Shown one piece after another: positions 32,489 to 37,396 of a stretch of DNA of 64,000 bases. Positions within the stretch are counted from its first letter, which is position 1; each line of letters begins with the position of its first letter. Origin of the DNA: Ustulina deusta. Lineage: Eukaryota; Ascomycota; Sordariomycetes; Xylariales; Xylariaceae. The DNA is taken from the NCBI GenBank assembly GCA_023159155.1, contig JAJNNX010000018.1, positions 372,001-436,000 of the forward strand, in the 5' to 3' direction. A program made the translations under genes and the position numbers. Below the pieces are notes generated by a model. That model did not search any database. It was not told where the DNA came from and saw only the letters and a list, made by a program, of their open reading frames with translations.

Positions 32489-34075
32489 ATGGCTGTCGAA
32501 GATATCGAGTACACGGCGAAAGAAGTCGCCGTTCACAACACGCCGGGGGATGTGTGGATGATTATTCACGGCCAAGGTAAGCCGCCCTCTCGTGTTATCC
32601 CCGCATGTAGCGTTAACTTCTCTTCGCTTAGTGTACGATGTGACGGGCTACCTTGGAGACCACCCTGGCGGTGCCGAAGTCCTTGTTGATGTCGCCGGTA
32701 AGGATGCGTCGGAAGAGTTCGACAATGCTGGTCACTCAGAGGATGCTTCTGAGATAATGGCCGCGTACCGCATTGGCAAACTGCAAGGCGGCAGCAAGAA
32801 GAAAGCAACATCTGCCGTTCGGCTGTCCACCGGAGTCACAGCACACAAGCCCGATACAACTAAGAGTTCTGTGAAGACGGTCATGAGTTTCGGCGCAGTG
32901 ACAGCTGTTGTTTTGAGCACCGCGGGTCTATATCACGTAGCCAGCCAACGGGGATTATTCACCGCTCTACTAGACCGCTCTATGTTTAGAAAGACCCAAG
33001 GCCTCGGCTTCTTAGAGGGCTTTCTCATCGCATCGGCGGTCTTTGGTATTTCCGGCACTGTCCTGTCTCGGAATCTTCTCAAACTTCTGCATTCTCATCC
33101 CAGCTTCATGAACTACCCCCCACATATGACTTTGCCAAAACGCGCCAAGCCAGAACTCCTTAACCAAGGCGGGTGGCTTCACCCAACCACATTCCAAAGT
33201 CTACCCCGTAAGTAATTCTCTATGTCATTTTCTAGCATGGCCACTCGGAGATTATAACAGGTTTTTGAGTTGTAATCATGCCAGAGAAGTTATCTGTGCT
33301 TCAAGAAACATATGGCCATCATTCTCGAAACGGCGTCAACTAACCCCTGAGTGTTATAGTGGTCAAGAAGGATCTAGTCGCGCCAAACACATATCGCCTA
33401 GTACTTGAACTACCGACACCTGAATCAGTCCTTGGCTTGCCCATTGGGCAGCACGTCGCTATTACAGCCAATATTGATGGTCAAGCAGTGACTCGATCCT
33501 ACACTCCAATTTCCAACAACGCTGATCGTGGCACACTTGACCTAATAATCAAATGCTATCCTGATGGCAAGCTCACAGGCGGTTATCTAGCGAACCTCTC
33601 AGTTGGAGACGAGGTGAAGTTCCGTGGGCCGAAGGGAGCCATGCGTTACAAGCGCGGCTACTGCAAGCGGATTGGTATGCTGGCGGGCGGATCAGGAATA
33701 ACGCCCATGTACCAGTTGATCCGTGCCATATGTGAGGACCAGCGAGACACTACCAAGATTAGCTTAATCTATGCCAACCGAACAGAGGCCGACATATTAC
33801 TCCGGGGCGAACTCGAAGCTTTCGCAAGGAAGTATCCCAATAATTTCCAGTTATACTACATCTTGGATACCCCCTCGCCGGATTGGCGAGGAGGAAAAGG
33901 GTACGTGACGAAAGAAATTTTTGCAGAGCGTTTCCCGCCCGCAGATATAGACTCGAAGGCCTTGATCTGCGGTCCACCGGGGATGGTAAATGCGGCAAAG
34001 AAGGCCCTTGTTGAGTTAGGCTTCGAGAAGCCAGGTGCGATGTCAAAGATGAGCGACCAAATCTTCTGCTTTTGA
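32489..34075 (+). CDS. Cytochrome b5 - cytochrome b5 reductase fusion
   Basis: Three exons, 32489-32576, 32632-33207 and 33360-34075, give 459 residues. The intron at 32577-32631 splits the b5 domain and restores [16 protein letters not shown]. Haem ligands are His40 (HPGG) and His64 (NAGHS). Two hydrophobic segments follow ([40 protein letters not shown]), so the protein is membrane-bound, probably in the ER or outer mitochondrial membrane. The C-terminal ferredoxin-reductase module has the FAD motif RSYTPIS, the NADH motif GGSGITPMY and CGPPGM, ending DQIFCF. Predicted role: NADH-dependent electron delivery through its own b5 domain to a desaturase, hydroxylase or P450. The adjacent divergent P450 is the obvious candidate acceptor (inference). 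The second intron is 152 nt with a GTTATAG acceptor. Confidence 0.93.
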
Positions 34076-35232: not shown

Positions 35233-35622
35233 CTACTCGACAGTAGGCCCGTCCTTGGCTACATAGAGCGGCCATGGCGCAGCAGCCTCCTCGTTTCTCT
35301 TTGCGTCCTTAGCTACGTATAGCGGCCAAGGTGCTGGGGCTTCAGCGTCTCTCCTCGCGTCCTTAGCTACATAAAGCGGCCACGGTGCGGCAGCTTCGTT
35401 GTCTCTCTTTGCATCCTTGGCCACATAAAGCGGCCATGGCGCCGGGGCTTCACTGATATGGCCCGTCTCGGTTTTGGCAACACTCTCACTCTTCTTGACT
35501 ATATTTCAACATCAGCACCAATACCCTTGCTATGCGTAATGGATGATAGTGGTACCTGTACTTGCTGGGGCTGCGTAAACTAAAGACGCGCCGAGAAGAG
35601 CCGTGACGATGGAGAAATGCAT
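35233..35622 (-). CDS. Secreted repeat precursor peptide, dikaritin (UstA-like) RiPP type
   Basis: Two exons, 35622-35556 and 35498-35233, with a 57-nt intron (GTACCA...AATATAG), give 110 residues. Residues 1-18 are a signal peptide (MHFSIVTALLGASLVYAA). After a short leader to about residue 36, four 18-residue repeats follow at about 37-54, 55-72, 73-90 and 91-108. Each has the invariant core PWPLYVAKD, with Trp at 44, 62, 80 and 98 and Tyr at 47, 65, 83 and 101. The first three end in KR, RR and KR, Kex2-type sites; the fourth runs into the C-terminal tail GPTVE. Signal peptide, multiple core copies and dibasic sites are the architecture of ustiloxin, phomopsin, asperipin and epichloecyclin precursors, which are trimmed in the secretory pathway and macrocyclised by UstYa-family oxidases. 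Such an oxidase gene is the divergent neighbour. The core sequence is unlike those I know. The ORF is too short for most gene callers. The product and its activity are unknown. Confidence 0.88.
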
Positions 35623-36373: not shown

Positions 36374-37396
36374 ATGACTGAGAAGAATCGCGACTCGCTT
36401 TCTAGTGATGATATTCCTAGCCAGAGTGAGAGGCTCCTTTCTGAACCCTCTCAAGATGTCCGTTCCGACGGACAAAAGAAACGTACTCGACGATTGTATC
36501 CATGGCTATTAGCGGCAATAGTCCTCGTCACCTCAAATTTGCTGACCGCTGCACTCTGTATCGCATATTTCACGTACGGCAATCATTTATTGAGATGGAC
36601 CAGTTCATATTGTAAGTGTTGCACAATTCGACTCCGACGTGGAAATTCTAGGTATACTGACGTTCTAGCTCCTATACTTGATCAGTTATATATACCTACA
36701 ACCCTACGGGATCTCCATATCCCACTCATCCCCAATGCCACGGAACCCCGGGATATTTATCGCCTACCTCCTTCTCCAGCAGTGGATGAAGCCTGGGATC
36801 GAATCACTCGTGTCAATTTGATCAGCATTACCGAAGATGAGATTCGCAAGCTTGGAAAAGACCCTTCTCTGACCATCCCCTCGCCTGAGTCGTGGTGGTC
36901 TGAGGCGTGGGGTAAGGGATATATGGGCCAGATCGACGTATTCCACCAGATCCACTGCCTCAACATGCTCAGACAGGGACTCATTACCAATTACAACTAC
37001 TATTGGGGAAAGAAATATGGCCTGACGCCCCCGATCCAGTTTGGCATGCACCTAAACCATTGCCTAGGTACGATTTTAGAGAATCTCATGTGCCACGCTG
37101 ATGTCGACATCGTCACATTCAATTGGAGGGAGAGTCAAGACGAGCCTTTCCCAGACTTCGAGATTAAGAAGCAATGCAGGGACTTCGAGGCTATCGTGGA
37201 GTGGCAGAAAGAAAAGAAGCTTAATGACACTATTGAGCGCTGGAAGGCTCTCCAAAAACCCGTCGATGCGAAGCAGAGGAAAATGCCGCCTGGCTTGGCG
37301 GAGATTGATCCCTTGGGTGATGGCGAGGTCGATGGCGTCAGGGTACTTAGGTTGGAAGACGTGCCGGCTGATTGCTCGCCAGGAGCGTCAACATGA
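36374..37396 (+). CDS. UstYa-family (DUF3328) oxidase
   Basis: Two exons, 36374-36611 and 36669-37396, give 321 residues. The 57-nt intron (GTAAGT...CTGACGTTCTAG) is a multiple of three without a stop, so an unspliced reading frame also exists; splicing restores SSYSPILDQL, matching the YSP motif of the family. The start is ATG 36374 because the frame upstream begins with GTG. There is a cytosolic tail, one TM helix at residues 42-68 (PWLLAAIVLVTSNLLTAALC) and a lumenal domain. The diagnostic HxxHC pair is complete: HQIHC at 172-176 and HLNHC at 207-211. UstYa proteins in dikaritin pathways form the oxidative ether or C-C crosslinks of the precursor core. The adjacent divergent precursor is its likely substrate (inference). 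The C-terminus extends about 110 residues beyond the second motif and is acidic and charged. Confidence 0.93.
   Translation: MTEKNRDSLSSDDIPSQSERLLSEPSQDVRSDGQKKRTRRLYPWLLAAIVLVTSNLLTAALCIAYFTYGNHLLRWTSSYCKCCTIRLRRGNSRYTDVLAPILDQLYIPTTLRDLHIPLIPNATEPRDIYRLPPSPAVDEAWDRITRVNLISITEDEIRKLGKDPSLTIPSPESWWSEAWGKGYMGQIDVFHQIHCLNMLRQGLITNYNYYWGKKYGLTPPIQFGMHLNHCLGTILENLMCHADVDIVTFNWRESQDEPFPDFEIKKQCRDFEAIVEWQKEKKLNDTIERWKALQKPVDAKQRKMPPGLAEIDPLGDGEVDGVRVLRLEDVPADCSPGAST

Follow-up and report, generated by a model that had tools for sequence, protein, structure and literature searches.

A probable dikaritin-type locus with a four-copy PWPLYVAKD precursor in Ustulina deusta

Ustulina deusta, a wood-decay fungus of the Xylariaceae (Xylariales) also known under the genus name Kretzschmaria, carries a small gene for a protein in which the sequence PWPLYVAKD occurs four times. 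This raises the question of which type of peptide is made from it, a modified natural product of a known class or a linear signalling peptide. The gene was analyzed together with its surroundings in a window of 64,000 nucleotides, which is the whole stretch of DNA under study.

Structure and conservation of the precursor gene

The coding sequence of the precursor, including its intron and the stop codon, covers positions 35233 to 35622 and was found on the minus strand; the original prediction had named no strand. Exon 1 (35556..35622) contains the start codon, a predicted signal peptide and the first residues of the leader. It is followed by a GT-AG intron of 57 nt (35499..35555) with a CTGAT branch-like site and by exon 2 (35233..35498), which codes for the leader, four repeats of 18 residues each and the stop codon. 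Removal of the intron yields a protein of 110 amino acids, which is letter-for-letter identical to the GenBank hypothetical protein F4824DRAFT_461603 [Ustulina deusta]. This identity confirms the predicted 110-codon gene with an intron, but it also shows that the expectation of such a gene being missed by automated annotation was wrong for the genome of U. deusta, where the protein is annotated.

An alternative donor 6 nt upstream would result in a 63-nt intron and a precursor of 108 amino acids. This form was rejected, since both the GenBank model and the residues at the junction in two Xylaria homologues (S-T-V and S-P-V) agree with the 57-nt form. The RNA fold of the precursor stretch has a z of -0.84, and a Pfam search with the precursor protein gave no match.

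Residues 4 to 17 of the precursor are hydrophobic (mean hydropathy 1.84) and are accompanied by an A-x-A site, so that a signal peptide is predicted, as judged solely by hydropathy and this site. The hydrophobic N-terminus is conserved in the alignment of three species. About 20 leader residues lie between the end of the A-x-A site and the first repeat unit. The PWPLYV copies begin at residues 43, 61, 79, and 97, with a spacing of 18 in each case. Copies 1 to 3 of PWPLYVAKD were located by a back-translated core search at 35413..35439, 35359..35385, and 35305..35331 on the minus strand and are followed by A-K-R, A-R-R, and A-K-R, which comprise the predicted Kex2 sites KR (35404..35409), RR (35350..35355), and KR (35296..35301) on the same strand. 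Copy 4 (35251..35277, minus strand) is followed by G-P-T-V-E and the stop codon and has no dibasic site. The repeats are thus present as predicted, four in number and three of them closed by KR, RR, and KR, and an arrangement of multiple cores with KR, RR or KK between them is one of the criteria for dikaritins.

A repeat arising by chance can be ruled out. The window contains four matches to the degenerate DNA of the 9-residue core, 100 shuffles yielded none, and the open frame of the precursor reaches a repeat-plus-dibasic score of 15 versus a maximum of 4 among 20,990 residue-shuffled frames.

The four copies did not arise by recent duplication, because their core codons differ at many synonymous positions. 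When all six pairs of copies are added up, 23 synonymous differences in 36.5 sites (0.63) and no nonsynonymous difference in 125.5 sites were counted for the nine codons of the core. For the five spacer codons before it, the corresponding values are 15.7 synonymous differences in 19.5 sites and 22.3 nonsynonymous differences in 70.5 sites (0.32). As the core copies differ only synonymously, the peptide is kept by selection: purifying selection acts on the core peptide, and the DNA has drifted while the peptide has not.

Homologue and profile searches returned the same three precursor proteins, all of them Ustulina and Xylaria hypothetical proteins; the protein database search was limited to relatives sharing short exact words. 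The two relatives come from Xylaria longipes and X. digitata. In the 11 full copies of the three species PWPLY and KD are invariant, while V is replaced by I once and A by V once. The residue preceding the first core proline is A, E or V, and the conserved block therefore starts at the proline.

In the X. digitata protein (P0003), copy 1 is shortened to APLPKDAKR, by which Trp and Tyr are lost and KR is kept; this copy was left out of the count of 11. The other three copies retain the core, and degenerate homologue repeats devoid of dibasic sites, which the original prediction had named as evidence against itself, were consequently not found in this species. The loss of one copy could be read as a sign of a decaying or untranscribed locus. 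With an open frame, conservation in three species and no nonsynonymous core difference, decay is extremely unlikely.

The neighboring UstYa gene and the class of the locus

Directly adjacent to the precursor gene and divergent from it, with 751 nt between the start codons, a gene for a UstYa-family oxidase was identified on the plus strand (36374..37396; Pfam PF11807, E 2e-52). Removal of a 57-nt intron (36612-36668, GTAAGT...TTCTAG) leads to a protein of 321 amino acids, which is also the length of F4823DRAFT_631597 from another Ustulina deusta record. The protein has one membrane-spanning stretch, as judged by eye, and contains the motifs HQIHC and HLNHC, i.e., both HXXHC motifs of the family, which are suspected to form the active site (PMC12048977). 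The family is described as having a dicopper site and as forming the ether between the Tyr oxygen and the Phe beta carbon in asperipin-2a (PMC12186524). The genome of 56 Mb has at least 45 matches to PF11807, of which the one in the window is the best. An alignment of 34 relatives, chosen from 78, shows no variation in the H, H, and C of either motif. A shortened relative from Xylaria acuta (P0023) was left out of it; in an earlier alignment of 14 sequences this protein lacks the first HXXHC, and in the second motif its second H is replaced by Y. A search of the PDB with the UstYa profile gave a single match with an E of 0.24 to a protein of unrelated name.

The closest named relatives of the UstYa protein belong to the Xylariales, followed by a protein of Talaromyces atroroseus (P0015) with 52% identity over 95% of the query. 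As Talaromyces is far from Xylariaceae, this relative points to a possible horizontal transfer or an old shared cluster. Six records have at least 70% identity, namely U. deusta F4823, Xylariales sp. No.14919, X. bambusicola, X. cf. heliscus, X. arbuscula, and X. longipes. The list of three precursor proteins shares just two species with these, X. longipes and U. deusta (another record), and the pairing of precursor and UstYa is therefore incomplete among the listed proteins. Where other Xylariaceae have a close UstYa protein but no listed precursor, the precursor may have been missed in the annotation.

Dikaritins are RiPPs derived from Kex2-processed repeat proteins and cyclized by UstYa homologues (PMC10512285). 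As precursor and UstYa together define the class, the locus is with good confidence a dikaritin-type, UstYa-dependent RiPP locus, for which the genes are observed and the chemistry would follow that of the class. The dikaritin-like architecture had been proposed from the repeats, and it gains much from the adjacent UstYa gene, which was not cited at that time: a UstYa (DUF3328) gene in the cluster and two HXXHC motifs, both criteria for the class, are present. In a large survey, the frequency of UstYa/DUF3328 genes is highest immediately beside Kex2-repeat precursors, 22% of which have one (PMC7329392).

A linear, secreted and Kex2-processed signalling peptide resembling a pheromone or hormone, with an unrelated UstYa gene next to it, has also to be considered. 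The spacers between dibasic site and core, with a length of six residues in 7/9 and of seven in 2/9 cases, are rich in the dipeptides E-A, A-A, and P-A, like precursors of pheromones trimmed by Ste13. Such signatures are associated with pheromone-like peptides and are described as absent from the precursors of toxic cyclic peptides and epichloecyclins (PMC6339444), which is why the count of strict ladders matters. A strict X-Ala/X-Pro ladder was found in only one of the nine spacers; they are Ala/Glu-rich and pheromone-like, yet fail this test. Furthermore, the 110-residue precursor lacks Cys, whereas alpha-pheromones of subgroup I have two conserved Cys, although a subgroup from Pleosporales is reported without them (PMC6339444). 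The adjoining UstYa gene also argues against a mating factor, as these have, according to the same survey, no such neighbor apart from three exceptions (PMC7329392). A first genome search with the alpha-pheromone pattern gave two matches, neither of them a credible precursor, and a second one gave 17+20 matches versus 10+11 in the reversed control; neither search carries weight in either direction. Altogether, a linear signalling peptide seems quite unlikely, and a dikaritin-type product is preferred.

Further candidate members of the cluster were found in the neighborhood. A cytochrome P450 gene (29572..31251, minus strand; PF00067, 1.3e-65) has a RiPP P450 model as its best NCBIfam match, far below the cut-off, and none of the five proteins compared with NCBIfam had a match above it. 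Open frames for a cytochrome b5 and FAD/NAD reductase (32562..34075, plus strand; PF00173, PF00970, PF00175) are oriented divergently from the P450 gene and end 1.2 kb from the precursor; they may encode redox partners. A GMC oxidoreductase and a Dyp peroxidase are also located nearby. Pfam searches with 20 of the window's 84 open frames found no tyrosinase, peptidase or transporter.

Proposed maturation and crosslink chemistry

The precursor would enter the secretory pathway via its predicted signal peptide, where the membrane-anchored UstYa encoded next door may oxidize each PWPLYVAKD core. The phenol oxygen of Tyr would most likely be joined to the beta carbon of a neighboring residue, either the Trp three positions before or the adjacent Leu or Val. 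Kex2 would cleave after KR or RR and Kex1 would strip the basic residues, in a presumed order, whereupon aminopeptidases may trim the acidic, Ala-rich spacer up to the proline that opens the core. Bonds before proline resist most aminopeptidases, and for this reason N-terminal trimming is expected to halt there. The cyclic peptide, with ends as predicted, would then be secreted. For PWPLYVAKDA, the predicted [M+H]+ is 1159.6146 in the linear form and 1157.5989 with one ring or desaturation. The corresponding values are 774.4185 and, minus 2.016, 772.4028 for PWPLYV, and 1730.8384 and, likewise minus 2.016, 1728.8227 for the 16-mer DNEAAAPWPLYVAKDA.

The rings known from UstYa enzymes are closed through the Tyr oxygen (PMC7329392; PMC12186524), and a bond from this oxygen to a beta carbon is therefore a simpler guess than a Trp-Tyr crosslink and the parsimonious form of the predicted ring. 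In the survey, 65.6% of the UstYa-associated repeats contain Tyr versus 38.2% of the others, while Trp is not enriched (20.5% versus 24.5%; PMC7329392), which favors Tyr and not Trp as the usual reactant. A crosslink from Tyr to Trp is possible. The specific proposal of a Trp-Tyr side-chain crosslink, formed by one UstYa within a W-P-L-Y ring bounded by proline, with the aminopeptidase stop at proline setting the start of the core, is unlikely to be correct as a whole; in the consulted parts of the literature, this type of ring is not mentioned for the UstYa family.

Alternatively, UstYa could leave the core without a ring and instead hydroxylate, desaturate or halogenate it. Hydroxylation and chlorination (PMC12048977) as well as desaturation (PMC10512285) are known for the family, and the two prolines flanking Trp may resist the closure of a small ring. 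Against this, Tyr is invariant in all 11 full copies, in agreement with the ether rings through Tyr known from ustiloxins, asperipin-2a and phomopsins (PMC7329392). Such a ringless product is considered somewhat unlikely, and a ring involving Tyr is preferred. With a single precursor, a single UstYa, a single core sequence and sharply conserved core boundaries, the locus is compact, and it could therefore be used to test how a single UstYa picks its residues, Trp included.

Other UstYa loci and comparison with known systems

The exon-level PF11807 matches of the genome were grouped into 26 loci. All 26, represented by the window plus 25 further 10-kb stretches, were scanned for open frames with repeated words between dibasic sites. 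An open frame with repeats and a score of at least 5 was found at 11 of the 26 loci, two of which (L019 and L022) have only two copies; a 60-kb stretch without UstYa, which is a small control, reaches a score of 2. At 15 loci the scan, which split genes and single cores escape, detected no such frame, so that a UstYa gene alone is no proof of a precursor pair. All eleven repeat units contain Phe, Tyr or Trp, as seen by eye and without an estimate of chance.

Besides the window, dibasic repeat frames near UstYa are located at L026:5158-5553, L020:5306-6190, L016:6945-7427, L013:7108-7389, L014:6195-6635, L030:2201-2722, L023:3508-4020, L018:7842-8186, L022:7967-8113, and L019:3948-4163. Examples of these ten are units of DIDVADAF-KR (nine copies), VDAVQNTVY-KR (ten), AAWSNFVKSYVDGAEQV-KR (six), DNDDIWLW-KK (six), and VDGTQIAEGW-KR (two). 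At a twelfth locus (L025:5693-5918), a 54-nt tandem repeat near UstYa encodes a Tyr-containing DDSDDTQIYTI..TK unit with a single Lys instead of dibasic sites.

The PWPLYVAKD precursor is one of about a dozen such loci in the genome of U. deusta, and with repeats at 11/26 UstYa loci this genome is a good source for the class. Few dikaritin products are known, five as of 2022 (PMC10512285), compared with thousands of predicted precursors (PMC7329392).

The strings PWPLYV, APWPLY, and WPLYVA had no match in the searchable literature, whose scope excludes subscription papers and supplementary tables, and nothing in it links Xylaria with dikaritins or Kretzschmaria with ribosomally synthesized peptides. 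Together with the lack of a known precursor among the relatives, this supports, as far as searched, the earlier view that the core is unlike the known dikaritin cores. A survey of Kex2-processed repeat proteins (KEPs) by Umemura in 2020 lists 7878 precursors from 1345 of 1461 strains, with 838 types and 2560 stand-alone precursors that have no homologue (PMC7329392), and a novel precursor sequence of this type is therefore to be expected. In the related family Hypoxylaceae, RiPP pathways are described as not yet fully countable, being found by similarity to known precursors (PMC8403587). The locus thus probably encodes a new natural product of the known dikaritin class.

The KEPs of this survey have the same architecture as the PWPLYVAKD precursor. 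Among them, type P-3 has Trp with Pro, and 4/7 members are located beside a UstYa-family gene; its members, compared by description only, come from Fonsecaea, Cladophialophora, Galerina, Psilocybe, and Coprinellus and not from Xylariaceae (PMC7329392).

The ustiloxin and phomopsin clusters share with the U. deusta locus a multi-copy, Kex2-released core with Tyr as well as the UstYa family. However, they are described with two and five UstYa genes, respectively, plus a tyrosinase (PMC7329392), whereas the window has one UstYa gene and no tyrosinase among the scanned open frames.

Finally, the asperipin-2a locus of Aspergillus flavus differs in that the searches for relatives of the PWPLYVAKD precursor did not return the asperipin-2a precursor, and no transporter was seen among the 20 scanned frames of the window. 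A b5-type reductase lies near the U. deusta precursor and may or may not correspond to the reductase of the asperipin-2a cluster. Both loci have a repeat precursor with Kex2 sites and a single UstYa (PMC7329392; PMC12048977).
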